In this document: positions 7,976 through 45,108 of the stretch, piece by piece
Numbering within the stretch: position 1 is the first letter of the stretch
Layout of the letters: each line of letters opens with the position of its first letter
Origin: Thermodesulfobacteriota bacterium
Lineage (GTDB): Bacteria; Desulfobacterota; Syntrophorhabdia; Syntrophorhabdales; JANXAF01
Direction: 5' to 3'
NCBI GenBank assembly: GCA_025062045.1
Contig: JANXAF010000002.1
Location: forward strand, 70,765 to 134,764
Length of the DNA stretch: 64,000 nt
Notes under the pieces: generated by a model
The model's input: only the letters and a program-made list of their open reading frames with translations
What the model was told of the DNA's origin: nothing
Databases searched by the model: none
Program-made: the position numbers and the translations under genes

Positions 7976-9567
7976 TGATTGACATCTCGAGATTACCAGA
8001 AAGCCCGGGAGTCTATCTCTTTAAGGATAAAGATGGAAGGATACTTTACGTTGGCAAGGCAAAGAATATTAAAGAGCGAGTAAAAACTTACTTCAGGAAC
8101 GATTTTAAAAATCCGAAAACGCAAAACCTCATAAAAAAAATTTTTGACCTTGAGGCCATAATAACTTCAAGTGAAAAAGAGGCTTTTCTTTTAGAGAACA
8201 ACCTCATAAAAGAGTACGCTCCCCCTTATAACGTAAACTTGAGGGATGACAAGACATACATATCGATAAAGATAACGACTGCCGAAGAATATCCCGGACT
8301 TTACATAACGAGAAACGTAAAAGATGACGGGTCTACCTATTTTGGTCCTTATCCCCATGCGCATGATGTAAAAGAGACTCTAAGACTACTACAGCGTATA
8401 TATCCATTAAGAAGATGCAAAAACACGGTATTTCGAAAACGGTCGAGGCCTTGCATACTTAACGAGATAGGCAGGTGTCTAGCGCCATGCACGGGTCAAG
8501 TAACTAAAGAGGAGTACGCAAAAGTAGTCGGAGCTGTTATCGACTTTCTCTCAGGTCGGGCCGATGAGCTACTCAAGGATCTGGAACAAAAAATTCAGAA
8601 TTACGCAAAAACTTGGCAATTTGAGGAAGCCCAAGCCCTAAAAGAGAAATACATGGCCATTAGGGAGATGCTGGAAAAGCAGAACGTTCACTCCCACTTC
8701 GGAAAAGACAGGGACGTTTGGGCATTCCTTTGGGGTTCTGACATCTTCCGCTGTGTCGTCCTTAATTTCCGGCGGGGTGTTCTCATAGGAAAAAAGATTT
8801 ACAAAAAAACGGTTTTTTGCCCGTACGACGATGACGAAATTGTCTCTCTCCTTTTCCAATATTACAGTTTCAAACCGATCCCTGATGAGATTATCCTTTC
8901 CGAAAAGGTAGAAGGGGTCCATCTCTTAAGAGAGTATCTTAGCGAAAGAGCCAAAAAAGACGTGTCCTTTAAAGTTCCATCCGACGACGAGACTCGCGAC
9001 TTGGCCTTCATGGCAATTGAAAACCTTTACGCGGACGATATGCCGCTCGACGTAGCTTTCGTAAAGTACCTTCATCTTTCCCGCAAACCACGAAGAATAG
9101 AAATTTACGACTGCTCTCACCTCTTCGGAACGAGTCCATATGCAGCAATGGTAGTATTTGAGGATTTTAAGATGAAGAAGGAGGACTACAGGTTATTCCG
9201 TATAAAGGATGCTAATCCCATGGATGACCTTGCCTCACTAAAGGAGGTTCTGACAAGGAGAATAAAAGACTCAAGCCTAGGACCCCTTCCTGATCTATTC
9301 ATAGTAGATGGCGGAAGAGCTCACCTCAACGCATTAAGCAAAGTTCTCTCTGAGTTAAAAATTGAGGCCGATCTCATAGGAATAGCTAAAGCCAGAAAAA
9401 GGAAGAAGCTGGAAGATACCATATATCTTCCCACGAGGAAGAATCCCTTATACCTTCCCAGATCTTCGAGCGTCTTTAAAGAGCTTATTAGGATGAGGGA
9501 CGAGGCACACAGATTCGCCTTATCTTCCCACAAAAGGGGAAAGAAAAAGGATGCTTTCGGCGCATGA
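7975..9567 (+). CDS. uvrC: UvrABC system protein C lacking the C-terminal HhH domain
   Basis: The dual-incision nuclease of excision repair. The N-terminal GIY-YIG domain (GVYLFKDKDGRILYVGKAK, about 12-30) makes the 3' cut. The UVR domain (about 200-235, TWQFEEAQALKEKY) binds UvrB. The RNase H-like domain (EIYDCSHLFGTSP to FIVDGGRAHLN) makes the 5' cut. At 530 aa it is short: it stops just after RDEAHRFA plus a basic tail, where other UvrC proteins continue into the tandem helix-hairpin-helix domain. The next gene starts 17 nt before the stop and codes for a kinase, so the HhH part has not simply shifted frame. Confidence 0.95.
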   Translation: MIDISRLPESPGVYLFKDKDGRILYVGKAKNIKERVKTYFRNDFKNPKTQNLIKKIFDLEAIITSSEKEAFLLENNLIKEYAPPYNVNLRDDKTYISIKITTAEEYPGLYITRNVKDDGSTYFGPYPHAHDVKETLRLLQRIYPLRRCKNTVFRKRSRPCILNEIGRCLAPCTGQVTKEEYAKVVGAVIDFLSGRADELLKDLEQKIQNYAKTWQFEEAQALKEKYMAIREMLEKQNVHSHFGKDRDVWAFLWGSDIFRCVVLNFRRGVLIGKKIYKKTVFCPYDDDEIVSLLFQYYSFKPIPDEIILSEKVEGVHLLREYLSERAKKDVSFKVPSDDETRDLAFMAIENLYADDMPLDVAFVKYLHLSRKPRRIEIYDCSHLFGTSPYAAMVVFEDFKMKKEDYRLFRIKDANPMDDLASLKEVLTRRIKDSSLGPLPDLFIVDGGRAHLNALSKVLSELKIEADLIGIAKARKRKKLEDTIYLPTRKNPLYLPRSSSVFKELIRMRDEAHRFALSSHKRGKKKDAFGA

Positions 9568-10381
9568 TCTTCTCTCTTCACCCATAACACTTAAGGGCAT
9601 CGTTATGGTCATAGGCGCTCCGGATACTGGTAAAACTTACCTATGCAGGGAGCTCTTTAAAAAAGCGAAACTTTCCCAAAGAAAGGTCTCTCTCCTCGAC
9701 CTCGATGTTGGCCAACAAAGCCTCGCATATCCTGGAACGGTTGCTCTTACATACGAGCTTTCCGATTCTTTTCCTAACTTTCACAAGATGAGGTTTGTCG
9801 GCACAATAAATCCTTTTTTACGCCTTGAGGAACTTATAGAAGCCGCGAGGTCGCTCCTTTCCTATTCTATAAACTCCGATCTCACCATAGTTGACACATC
9901 TGGGCTTGTCGCAGGAGAACAGGGAAGGGTTCTAAAGACAAAGAAAGCTAACGCTCTCCTTCCAGACTTAATAATAGCGATCCAGAAGGAAAATGAGTTG
10001 GAGCACATTCTAAAGGAACTTAAAAACTTTGAAATTATAAGGGTTTCTCCCTCCTCACTCACTCAGGTGAAGACAAGGGATGTGAGAATAAGAAACCGAA
10101 CGCAAAAGCTCGTGTCCTATTTTTCCCTACCGCAGAACCAATTTTCCATAAAGCTCAAACACGTAAGGCTAAAACCTGATGGTCTGCGAGGATGGAACCT
10201 TCCTCCGGGACGTATAATAGGTTTAAATAGCAAAAACGAGACTGTAGCATTGGGGCTTTTAGAGGGGATTAGTAGAGAAACCCTCTTCTTTTCCTCTCCC
10301 CTCCCTATAGATAGAATTGGGGAGGTCGAAGAGATCGTCCTTGGCGAGAGGGGTTTAGACCTTGTCCTGGAAACCTGTTGA
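9551..10381 (+). CDS. Clp1/Grc3-family P-loop polynucleotide 5'-kinase-like protein
   Basis: A 276-aa P-loop protein. Walker A is GAPDTGKT near residue 23, then LDLDVGQQS and PGTVAL, and the family block TIVDTSGLVAGEQGRVLK followed by PDLIIAIQ. These are hallmarks of the Clp1/Grc3/NOL9 family, whose studied members phosphorylate 5'-hydroxyl ends of RNA (some DNA). A short C-terminal beta-rich tail follows the kinase core. It starts inside uvrC (17-nt overlap) and ends 65 nt before dnaA. Its place after uvrBC suggests a nucleic-acid end-processing role, but that is inference; the substrate is unknown. Confidence 0.75.
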   Translation: MLSAHDLLSSPITLKGIVMVIGAPDTGKTYLCRELFKKAKLSQRKVSLLDLDVGQQSLAYPGTVALTYELSDSFPNFHKMRFVGTINPFLRLEELIEAARSLLSYSINSDLTIVDTSGLVAGEQGRVLKTKKANALLPDLIIAIQKENELEHILKELKNFEIIRVSPSSLTQVKTRDVRIRNRTQKLVSYFSLPQNQFSIKLKHVRLKPDGLRGWNLPPGRIIGLNSKNETVALGLLEGISRETLFFSSPLPIDRIGEVEEIVLGERGLDLVLETC

Positions 10382-10446
10382 AACTTTCGGACTTTTGTTT
10401 TATCATTTACGAAACCTCCAAAGGCAAATGTCAGATAATTAAAGCC

Positions 10447-11769
10447 ATGGATATCCGAAGAATCGAGTCCTTCTTAAAGGAGAGGCTCTCTGAATCTCTA
10501 GATGCGGAATCATTTAAGACTTGGATAGAGCCTATATGTGTAGAAGAGGTGCATCAAAAGAAAATCACTCTTTCAGTGCCAAACAGTTTTTTTAGGGACT
10601 GGGTCTTAGAAAACTACTCCTCCACTATAAAAAACGTTCTTTTTGACATCATGGGTCAGGATGTATCTGTCGAATATACGGTAAAGAAACAATCTGAGCA
10701 AAGAGACAATAGACGGTTCCTATACGAAGAGAAACGACCGACCGGGATCTTTAACCCAAAGTACACTTTTGACAATTTTGTCGTCGGAGCAAACAACCAA
10801 TTTGCGAATGCCGCGGCTTTAGCAGTTGCTACGAATCCTGGAAAGACTTACAATCCCCTATTCATCTACGGTGGTGTCGGGTTAGGTAAGACCCACCTCC
10901 TTAACGCCATTGGGAACTTCGTAATAAAACATGGAACTATAGAACCCGATAAAGTCTGTTATATAACTGCAGAGGTTTTCACTAACGAGCTAATAAACTC
11001 GCTACGTTATCAGAAGATGGATGAGTTTCGGAATCGCTTTCGAAAGATGAGTATACTTCTCATAGACGATATACAGTTCATAGCTGGAAAGGAGCGGACA
11101 CAGGAGGAATTCTTCCATACTTTCAACGCTCTTTACGAAGGCATGAAGCAGATAGTGGTTACGAGCGACAAGTTTCCAAGGGACCTTGAAAACATCGAAG
11201 AAAGATTAAAGTCCCGCTTCGAGTGGGGTCTAATAGCCGACATTCAGCCTCCCGACATAGAAACGAAAGTTGCGATCTTAAAGAAGAAGGCTGAGGAGGA
11301 GAACATCGATCTGCCACTGGATGTGGCGTTTTATATAGCCTCACATACCGACGATTCTGTAAGATCGCTCGAAGGATGTCTAAAGAGGTTAAGTCTATAC
11401 GCCTCCCTTCATAACGCCGAAATCACACTTGAACTTGCAAAGACGGTTATGAGCGGCTTTTTAAAGAAAAAAGATCGACCTGTGAGCGTAGAAACAATAA
11501 TAAGGGAGGTCGCCAAGTACTTTTCCATTAGGCCTCAGGATCTCCTGTCTAAGAAAAGGGCAAGATCGGTTCTCCTGCCAAGACAGATCGCTCTATACCT
11601 TGCAAGAAAACATACCGACCATTCTCTTATAGATCTCGGTCAAAAGTTCGGGGGAAAGGACCACGCAACGGTTATACACGCCATAAAAAAGATCAAACAG
11701 GAACTCGATTTCAACAAAGAGTTGAAAACTGCTGTAGAGAACATAGAGAGGAATCTAAAAGAGAGATAA
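10447..11769 (+). CDS. dnaA: Chromosomal replication initiator DnaA
   Basis: The origin-binding AAA+ ATPase that opens oriC. From ATG 10447 it is 440 aa, normal length, beginning MDIRRIESFL and then the domain I pattern SFKTWIEPI. Walker A is GGVGLGKT (142-149), Walker B is LLIDDIQF, and sensor regions follow. Domain IV has the DNA-binding signature GGKDHATVIHAIKKI. A TTG further upstream (10378) overlaps the previous stop and would add a 23-residue tail not typical of DnaA, so I reject it. A GATAAT (10434-10439) lies 7 nt before the ATG and could be the -10 of a leaderless message, but no -35 is evident. Confidence 0.97.
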   Translation: MDIRRIESFLKERLSESLDAESFKTWIEPICVEEVHQKKITLSVPNSFFRDWVLENYSSTIKNVLFDIMGQDVSVEYTVKKQSEQRDNRRFLYEEKRPTGIFNPKYTFDNFVVGANNQFANAAALAVATNPGKTYNPLFIYGGVGLGKTHLLNAIGNFVIKHGTIEPDKVCYITAEVFTNELINSLRYQKMDEFRNRFRKMSILLIDDIQFIAGKERTQEEFFHTFNALYEGMKQIVVTSDKFPRDLENIEERLKSRFEWGLIADIQPPDIETKVAILKKKAEEENIDLPLDVAFYIASHTDDSVRSLEGCLKRLSLYASLHNAEITLELAKTVMSGFLKKKDRPVSVETIIREVAKYFSIRPQDLLSKKRARSVLLPRQIALYLARKHTDHSLIDLGQKFGGKDHATVIHAIKKIKQELDFNKELKTAVENIERNLKER

Positions 11770-41953: not shown

Positions 41954-42949
41954 TTAAACCTCCCTCAGGAAAGAAGTGGCTTCCTCCGGGGGTGTAGGGT
42001 TTATGTAAAATCCGGTTCCCCACTCAAAACCCGCAAGCCTGGTAAGCCTTGGGATTATTTCGATGTGCCAATGGTAATGGGGAAGGTATGAAGTGTTAAG
42101 TGGGGAAGTATGGATTATAAAGTTGTAAGGAGGCCTCTTTAATCCCTTATCGTATTTTTTTAGAATAACCGAGAAGATCTCGGCCAGGGAAAGGTAACTA
42201 TTCGATTGAGCATGCTTTTCAAAATGGGATTCGTGGTTTTTTGGGAGTATCCAGATCTCGAAGGGGAACCTGGAGGCGTAAGGTGAAATGGCGAGAAAGC
42301 GGTCGTTCTCAAAAACGACCCTTGTCTTTTCATCTTTCTCTTGGGCGATTATGTCACAGAAGATGCACCTTTCCTTCAGTCGGAAGTGGGTCAGTGCACC
42401 CGCCATTTCTTCGGAGACGATTTTGGGAACAATTGGTAAAGCGATGAGTTGGGAATGGGAATGGTCTATAGATGCCCCAGCCCTCTGACCGTAGTTTTTG
42501 AAAACCATGATGTATCTGAATCTTATGTCTTTTACTAGATCCTCGCATCTTTCCCTAAAAGCTATGAAGATGTCGGCCAATTTTGGAATTTCCATATCGA
42601 AAAGATGCTCATCGTGATCTGGAGTCTCAATTATTACCTCGTGCGCGCCAATCCCGTTCATCCTGTCGTAAATACCCACACCTTCCTTTTGGAGGTCTCC
42701 TTCGATCCTTAGTGCTGGAAATTTATTAGGTACGACTCTCAAAGTCCAGCCGGGTCTGTCTCTAGGGGAGCCGTCTCGCCTTATGGCAAAGACTTCAGGG
42801 GGGGTCATCGATTCATTTCCAGGACAAAGGGGGCAGACAGTGGGCCTCGTATAAGGAGTCTCATCGAGGACGAATATTGGCCTTTTACCTCTTTCCTCAG
42901 AGATTATTACCCATCTGTCGCTTACCGGGTCCTTCCGCAATTCTGGCAT
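41954..42949 (-). CDS. galT: GalT-family nucleotidylyltransferase (galactose-1-P uridylyltransferase or ADP-glucose phosphorylase)
   Basis: A 331-aa HIT-superfamily protein. N-terminal RKDPVSDRWVIISEERGKRP and CPLCPGNE (zinc ligands), the middle IDHSHSQLIALP, and the C-terminal HYHWHIEIIPR with the catalytic His triad pattern are diagnostic of GalT. ERCIFCD supplies two more Cys. No galK or galE is near; the gene lies directly before glgA, so an ADP-glucose phosphorylase-type activity on glycogen precursors is a real alternative. Transcribed divergently from the rhomboid gene. Confidence 0.82.
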   Translation of the reverse strand: MPELRKDPVSDRWVIISEERGKRPIFVLDETPYTRPTVCPLCPGNESMTPPEVFAIRRDGSPRDRPGWTLRVVPNKFPALRIEGDLQKEGVGIYDRMNGIGAHEVIIETPDHDEHLFDMEIPKLADIFIAFRERCEDLVKDIRFRYIMVFKNYGQRAGASIDHSHSQLIALPIVPKIVSEEMAGALTHFRLKERCIFCDIIAQEKDEKTRVVFENDRFLAISPYASRFPFEIWILPKNHESHFEKHAQSNSYLSLAEIFSVILKKYDKGLKRPPYNFIIHTSPLNTSYLPHYHWHIEIIPRLTRLAGFEWGTGFYINPTPPEEATSFLREV

Positions 42950-43020: not shown

Positions 43021-43689
43021 ATGATCCCTATAAAAGATAACATACCTACCCGGACCTTCCCCATTATAACAGTTGGTATAATCTTTGTAAACATCTCGGT
43101 CTTTATCTGGCAATCTTTTCTTTCACCTAGAGAGGAGGAACAATTATTCCTTTATCTGGGTCTCATTCCAAGGGAGCTAACACTCGCTCTCTCCTCAAGA
43201 ATCGAAATTCTGCCTTATAATCTGGTTACGCTTTTTACGTCGATGTTTTTGCACGGCGGGGTCTTCCACGTAGTCGGCAATATGCTCTATCTGTGGATAT
43301 TTGGGAATAACATAGAGGATTCCTTTGGTCATGGGAGGTTTGCTTTCTTTTATCTGCTTTCTGGAGTATTTGCGGCGATCGTTCAATACCTTTACGATCC
43401 TTTGTCTAATGTACCGATGATTGGTGCTTCGGGGGCTGTTTCTGGTGTTTTGGGGGCATATCTTGTGCTTTATCCTTACGCGAGGGTTATAACACTAGTC
43501 TTCATATTTATATTTGTTAAGATTGTGGAACTTCCAGCCCTTATTTTTCTTACATTCTGGTTTCTAATGCAGTTTCTCCATTCTGGGATGGAAGGGGTGG
43601 CGTGGTACGCGCACATAGGTGGATTCATATTTGGGATTTTTATGGGAAGGCTGTTTGCCAAAAGACGCGTAAAAAGATTGTGGCGCTAG
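43021..43689 (+). CDS. Rhomboid-family intramembrane serine protease
   Basis: A 222-aa protein with six hydrophobic segments. The catalytic Ser is residue 137 in GASG, and the His is residue 198 in HIGGFIFG; LHGGVFHVVGNMLYLWIFG with its His-x-x-x-N pattern is also typical. It cleaves membrane proteins within the bilayer; targets are unknown. It ends 18 nt before the radical SAM gene, with the parS site between and overlapping that gene's start. Confidence 0.9.
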   Translation: MIPIKDNIPTRTFPIITVGIIFVNISVFIWQSFLSPREEEQLFLYLGLIPRELTLALSSRIEILPYNLVTLFTSMFLHGGVFHVVGNMLYLWIFGNNIEDSFGHGRFAFFYLLSGVFAAIVQYLYDPLSNVPMIGASGAVSGVLGAYLVLYPYARVITLVFIFIFVKIVELPALIFLTFWFLMQFLHSGMEGVAWYAHIGGFIFGIFMGRLFAKRRVKRLWR

Positions 43690-43698
43690 ATCGGAAAA

Positions 43699-43716
43699 TT
43701 GTTTCACGTGAAACAA
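43699..43716. promoter_or_regulatory. parS centromere site (ParB-binding palindrome)
   Basis: TTGTTTCACGTGAAACAA is a perfect 18-bp inverted repeat whose inner 16 bp (43700-43715) equal the widely conserved parS sequence bound by chromosomal ParB. No second copy was found in the window. It spans the 5' end of the radical SAM gene. parA and parB are not in the window. Confidence 0.93.
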
Positions 43717-45108
43717 CCTTTTGTCCTTCTCGTTAATCCTTACATTTACGATTTTGCAGCGTACAATTATTGGTCCAAGCCACTCGGACTCCTCTATATC
43801 GGTGGGATTTTGAGAAAAAATAAAATTGAGGTTTTACTCATAGATTGTATGGAGGAAGACAAAAGAAAAAAGAAAGAAGATGGCCGCAGTCCTTACGTGA
43901 AAGAGAAGGTCAAAAAACCTGATGCCCTAAAGGAGATAAAACGGCCGCTTAGAAGATATGGCATTTCTCCGAAGAGACTCGTAGCGGCTCTAAAAGAAAT
44001 ACCGAATCCAGATATGATTTTCGTGAGTTCGAGCATGACTTATTGGTATTTAGGGACAAAAGAAGTTGTCCACATCCTAAAAGAGATTTATCCCTCGATA
44101 CCAATAGTAGTCGGAGGAATTTATCCGAGCCTCTGTTGGGAACACGCCCAAAGAACGCTAAATGGAGCAGATCTTATAGTTTCGAAAGAAAAGATTAACA
44201 CAATCTATACTTACCTCGAAGAGAGACTTAACATCAAATTCTCTTTTAAACCCCATTTGGAGGACTTGAATTCCCTCCCACTGCCTGCTTTTGATCTCTA
44301 CGAATCGGTCGACTTTGTTCCCCTTCTAACTTCGCTCGGATGTGTATTCAGATGTACCTATTGTGCAACAAACTATTTATATCCAAAGATGAAAAGGATG
44401 AAACCGAAAAAAGTGTTAGAGGAGATTTCATACTGGGTTTCTTTTGGGGTTAGAAGGTTTGTTCTGTACGATGACTGTTTCCTTGCCGACAAGGACAATC
44501 ACGCAGTCCCAATCCTTCGCGGAATAGCTACTTTTAAAGAGAAAGTGGAGATTTACAATCCGAATGCGCTAAATGCGGTTTTCATCGACGATGAGGTTGC
44601 AAGCCTTCTCTCGGAAGCAGGTTTTATGGAAGTAAGGCTTGGACTTGAGTCGTTGAATCCTTTTACCCAGATTAATACAGGCGGAAAAGTAGATACACAA
44701 GGATTGAGGAAAGCCGTATCACATCTTATGGCAGCTGGATTCAAAGGGAAAGATATCCACATTTATCTTTTGGCAGGGTTGCCCAACCAAAGATGGGAAG
44801 AAGTAAAAGAATCTATAGATTTTGTCTTAGATCTAGGATGTACCCCCCACATAGCCGAATACGCACCGTGTCCAAAAACAGAGATGTTCGAAAAGAACAA
44901 AAGGATTGCACGCTTTCCAATCGACGAAGAACCGCTATTCCACAATAACACGCTTATGCCCTTTGCCTGGTCAGGTTTTACCGAAGATGACCTTCAATAT
45001 CTCAAATCTTACTTAAGACAAAATATTCAGCGGCTCTCCCAAGATTTGACCCAAAGGGTACCACACAAATGTTTAAAAGAACAACTCACACAGACTTTTG
45101 AGACTTGA
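43708..45108 (+). CDS. B12-binding-domain radical SAM protein
   Basis: A 466-aa protein from GTG 43708. The N-terminal region (about 1-185, LLVNPYIYDF, then GLLYIGGIL and VVGGIYPSL) resembles the cobalamin-binding domain; the radical SAM cluster motif is CVFRCTYC, followed by RRFVLYDDCFL and VRLGLESLNP. Such enzymes do methyl transfers or other radical chemistry; the substrate is unknown. A TTG nine bases earlier would give MFHVKQ, a peptide that comes directly from parS; GTG inside parS, with GGAA about 11 nt upstream, is preferred. The 3' end overlaps addB by 82 bp. Confidence 0.8.
   Translation: MKQPFVLLVNPYIYDFAAYNYWSKPLGLLYIGGILRKNKIEVLLIDCMEEDKRKKKEDGRSPYVKEKVKKPDALKEIKRPLRRYGISPKRLVAALKEIPNPDMIFVSSSMTYWYLGTKEVVHILKEIYPSIPIVVGGIYPSLCWEHAQRTLNGADLIVSKEKINTIYTYLEERLNIKFSFKPHLEDLNSLPLPAFDLYESVDFVPLLTSLGCVFRCTYCATNYLYPKMKRMKPKKVLEEISYWVSFGVRRFVLYDDCFLADKDNHAVPILRGIATFKEKVEIYNPNALNAVFIDDEVASLLSEAGFMEVRLGLESLNPFTQINTGGKVDTQGLRKAVSHLMAAGFKGKDIHIYLLAGLPNQRWEEVKESIDFVLDLGCTPHIAEYAPCPKTEMFEKNKRIARFPIDEEPLFHNNTLMPFAWSGFTEDDLQYLKSYLRQNIQRLSQDLTQRVPHKCLKEQLTQTFET

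Follow-up and report, generated by a model that had tools for sequence, protein, structure and literature searches.

The chromosomal parS sites of the ParABS systems of B. subtilis, Caulobacter and P. aeruginosa share a palindromic 16-mer consensus, lie close to the origin and occur in genomes that encode both ParA and ParB. Several copies clustered near oriC are common, though not obligatory, linkage between oriC and parAB is usual, and mnmE is part of the classic oriC-proximal gene cluster. A single parS is also known and can suffice (PMC7333895, PMC4368675), as in Xanthomonas campestris with its one parS per chromosome (PMC7333895), and in P. aeruginosa PAO1 nine of the ten parS sites are predicted within coding sequences (PMC4368675). 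The site that we describe here has the same consensus, palindromic form, proximity to the origin and presence of ParA and ParB in the genome as the sites of the three ParABS systems, but it differs from them in being a single copy, in having parAB off the origin contig and in also forming a gene's start region. It resembles the single parS of X. campestris but is located at a junction between a rhomboid and a radical SAM gene, and it resembles the intragenic sites of PAO1 as a centromere site in coding sequence but is placed at the initiation codon, in an overlap kept across genera and families. An intragenic parS is ordinary; the unusual feature is that the overlap with the initiation codon is conserved. 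We are dealing with a parS of ordinary kind, in which the overlap of centromere and start codon is unusually well conserved. Our literature search, with subscription papers outside its reach, found no description of a parS overlapping a start codon, and at the level of full text it found none of a parS with mnmE and a radical SAM gene.

Judged from its sequence, the 16-base palindrome is almost certainly the only centromere-like parS site of this bacterium. The window (the whole stretch of 64 kb that was analysed, G000:C2:70765-134764) belongs to a genome of 1.76 Mb in 29 contigs that is 97% complete, and our pattern and family searches covered the whole genome. The features that bear on the argument are the following.

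10378..11769, plus strand: dnaA (TIGR00362, 544 bits), the marker of the origin region
41954..42949, minus strand: galactose-1-phosphate uridylyltransferase-like (galT-like) gene (Pfam), the divergent neighbour that precedes the rhomboid gene
43021..43689, plus strand: rhomboid-family protease gene (Pfam Rhomboid), directly upstream of the radical SAM gene
43699..45108, plus strand: B12-binding radical SAM gene, an open reading frame with Pfam PF02310 (B12-binding) and PF04055 (Radical_SAM), whose first codons (M F H V K Q) are the parS
43699..43701, plus strand: possible start codon, TTG, which shares its last two bases with the parS (positions 1-2)
43700..43715, no strand assigned: parS 16-mer TGTTTCACGTGAAACA, an exact match to the consensus
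43708..43710, plus strand: central GTG of the palindrome (CACGTG), a possible start codon in place of the TTG

The original prediction had described an exact palindrome holding the consensus parS 16-mer, present once in the window and effectively impossible by chance in 64 kb, and each of these points is borne out. Positions 43699-43716 (TTGTTTCACGTGAAACAA) form a perfect palindrome with the 16-mer inside it, and no other match to the 16-mer occurs in the 64 kb even when up to three mismatches are allowed (shuffled windows hold a mean of 0.21 such matches). By simple expectation (bases / 4^16), the exact 16-mer would arise by chance about 1.5e-5 times per 64 kb and about 4e-4 times per genome. 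The clustered copies near oriC that had been hoped for did not appear, since the genome-wide search returned a single exact copy in this 97%-complete genome, together with one copy with two mismatches on contig C11. The bases are those of parS rather than those of NBS, the related palindrome bound by the ParB paralogue Noc; in the NBS half-site, position 1 is adenine and position 6 is cytosine (PMC7383237).

The position near the origin, predicted at about 32 kb from dnaA, holds as well. The distance from parS to dnaA is 31.9 kb; dnaA is followed by dnaN and gyrB, and the GC skew switches sign near dnaA, which together place parS about 32 kb from the origin region. Nineteen genomes of the order carry dnaA and parS on one contig, and all 34 of their parS sites on such contigs (at most one mismatch) lie 8.4-59 kb from dnaA. 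Between uvrC and dnaA, the window also holds an open reading frame of 276 amino acids (9551-10381) with no NCBIfam match.

A search of the genome for parAB had been proposed as a check, with the lack of a ParB homologue counting against the site; a complete parA-parB pair, the two genes adjacent, lies on contig C5, while the window is part of contig C2. The C5 ParB has homologues among solved Spo0J/ParB chains (E 8.5e-55) and, numbered as Caulobacter ParB by anchoring on the Caulobacter chain, carries R173, N178, T179, K184, G201 and R204; all 27 ParBs compared from the order share R173, N178, G201 and R204. R173 and G201 mark recognition of parS, whereas Q173 and R201 mark recognition of NBS by Noc, and K184 is treated as permissive (PMC7383237). 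The C5 ParB thus carries specificity residues of the parS type rather than the Noc type. At three other DNA-contact positions it differs from Caulobacter ParB (Q162H, K171V, S172E), and most of the order shows changes at positions 162, 171 and 172. The same genome encodes a divergent ParB/Noc-like protein of 310 amino acids (L004, G000:C6, 1342-2274) that falls below the family cut-offs and lies about 3 kb from mnmE, and four relatives (G004, G012, G015, G032) each have 7-12 ParB-family matches and more than 50 first-look candidates, far above the numbers in their own relatives. In no genome of the order was parB found to share a contig with dnaA, nor was parAB found linked to the parS site; wherever parB and mnmE were found, they were on contigs other than that of dnaA, so that parAB seems unlinked from the origin in this order, as seen on draft contigs.

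The predicted overlap with the 5' coding end of a B12-type radical SAM gene is confirmed by the open reading frame at 43699-45108 with its two Pfam domains; no NCBIfam model reaches its cut-off. The frame begins 9 nt behind the rhomboid gene, and the two genes are probably co-transcribed. Translation may start at the TTG, for which a GGA at 43693-43695 would be a possible weak ribosome-binding site, or at the central GTG; no other in-frame start codon was found near 43699 or 43708. The base that precedes parS varies among relatives, and in G004, G011 and G012 the first base of the site is C, which rules out an NTG at this place and leaves only the central GTG as a nearby start. Indeed, this GTG is the sole start common to all in-frame homologues.

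Within the order, for which mostly draft genomes were compared, 43 of 46 genomes have the radical SAM gene, as a single copy in each, and the galT-rhomboid-radical SAM gene order is kept throughout. A parS-like site with zero to two mismatches stands at the 5' end of the gene in at least 19 of the 43 orthologue-bearing genomes. Measured as the distance from parS to the first column of the radical SAM gene, the placement is the same, with at most one mismatch, in G000, G001, G002, G003, G004, G006, G008, G010, G011, G017, G029 and G039, and with two mismatches in G012. In the genus g12 (G013, G014, G031), the palindrome GGTTTCACGTGAAACC, or a version ending in ACT, follows an upstream ATG and is translated in a different frame, giving VSRET, and in G015, G019 and G032 a parS-like site lies just upstream of the radical SAM ATG. 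Thirteen of the 30 full-locus orthologues of the order have no parS at the gene, indicating that the overlap is not indispensable; those without the site typically start directly with MK..LLINP. The one named relative, a Syntrophorhabdus MAG, does not carry the site. Further parS-like sites occur elsewhere in some of these genomes. G011 and G012 carry a second one (L034 and L027, both at 1501-1516) at a distance of roughly 8-11 kb from the radical SAM gene. It lies within the coding region of a gene for a transporter-like membrane protein (chromate-transporter-like by eye), where it is in the FHVK/FHMK frame. In G015 (L030, 1501-1516), a gene that by eye resembles an isochorismatase-family hydrolase has one at its start, translated as VSRET.

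The pairing of parS and radical SAM gene is also found beyond the order. The radical SAM gene is present in 156 of the 297 genomes sampled from the phylum, and among 60 gene starts examined from 59 genomes outside the order, parS stands at the start in 11 genomes of four families.

f15: G057, G094, G129 (two gene copies) and G210
f10: G124, G153, G231, G253 and G294
f74: G207
f26: G068

In G314 (L135, G314:C18), two exact copies flank the gene, one 22 nt before the start and one just behind the stop. The gene directly upstream is mnmE in all 11 genomes and in G314, except in G153, whose contig ends at the site. Outside the order, each examined start behind mnmE has parS at or just before it, and no mnmE was found upstream of the examined starts that lack parS. 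When the parS label is mapped onto a radical SAM tree of 49 rows, 10 changes are required, compared with 19.7 after shuffling; parS is hence clustered on the tree, yet has been gained or lost several times. We reject a permanent bond between parS and the radical SAM gene, given the many orthologues without the site and the parS behind mnmE in G052 and G056, where the radical SAM gene is absent. Most genomes of the phylum have one or two parS sites (at most one mismatch), while G257 has 19 and G319 has 20, the latter over several contigs.

We propose that the palindrome is a parS centromere that would serve predicted ParB/ParA segregation of the origin and that overlaps the gene start since long ago, a reading to which, weighed from sequence, we give a probability of about 0.93. 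The identity as centromere is supported because the site is exact and unique, parAB is present, the position is origin-proximal and conserved, and the DNA is constrained. Against it count the single site, a parB off the dnaA contig, the three altered ParB contacts and the 13 of 30 orthologues without the site. It is very improbable that the palindrome arose by chance or is the CACGTG-type site of another regulator, unrelated to ParB. The genome-wide expectation for chance given above is small, a match with at most one mismatch is present in 46 of 60 relatives while a control with the reversed pattern gave no match in any of the 60, and the site is origin-proximal in 19 of 19 testable genomes. 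Even less credible is the view that the enzyme needs the peptide FHVK and that the palindrome is a by-product of its codons. FHVK is indeed encoded in 21 of the 49 orthologues of the tree; however, the in-frame cases from several families use TTT CAC GTG AAA in 23 of 23 sequences, while the codons downstream vary in the same 23 (AAT/AAC for Asn, 10:13; CCA/CCC/CCT/CCG for Pro, 4:10:6:3). Moreover, genus g12 keeps the DNA in the VSRET frame, elsewhere the site lies outside the gene, and orthologues without it begin directly at MK..LLINP. Because four codons are invariant beside variable neighbours and the site is retained in frame-shifted copies, the comparison of these sequences shows that selection acts on the DNA and not on the encoded peptide, and we reject conservation of FHVK at the peptide level.

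A regulatory role for the overlap, in which ParB at the start codon, or sliding from it, would repress expression of the radical SAM gene or time it with replication of the origin, is unlikely but deserves more weight than either of these. The pairing of parS with the 5' end of the gene recurs across several families, and in P. aeruginosa extra ParB is reported to repress the promoters beside parS3 and parS4 (PMC5521831). On the other hand, the distance and frame between gene and site are not fixed, the site is often absent, and in B. subtilis the loss of Spo0J left the expression of parS-adjacent genes unchanged (PMC7022226). The recurrence of the pairing also follows mnmE synteny, so a shared location explains it without regulation. 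We consider it similarly doubtful that start codon and centromere are functionally coupled, with ParB loading tuning the gene and the pair for this reason kept through rearrangements across families.

Under the centromere reading, a ParB dimer would nucleate on the palindrome, load as a CTP-dependent clamp and slide out across the flanking genes and, together with ParA, would segregate the origin region. The site lies where two neighbouring genes abut and for this reason also forms the first codons of the second of them, the radical SAM gene. On this reading the overlap is old, with parS at the mnmE/radical SAM junction in other families of the phylum; in the window's order, the cluster seems to have been broken up, and the radical SAM gene may have retained its 5' parS and its place close to dnaA. 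What we infer here is the binding of ParB, a role in segregation and the direction that evolution took.

The locus is a clear example from nature of a centromere that also serves as a gene start, and there is evidence that selection is on DNA rather than on peptide. It shows that parS can remain close to the origin although its usual companions, mnmE and parAB, are no longer linked to it. In proteins of this phylum, an N-terminal FHVK or VSRET can point to a parS site, and start codons annotated at such N-termini need care.
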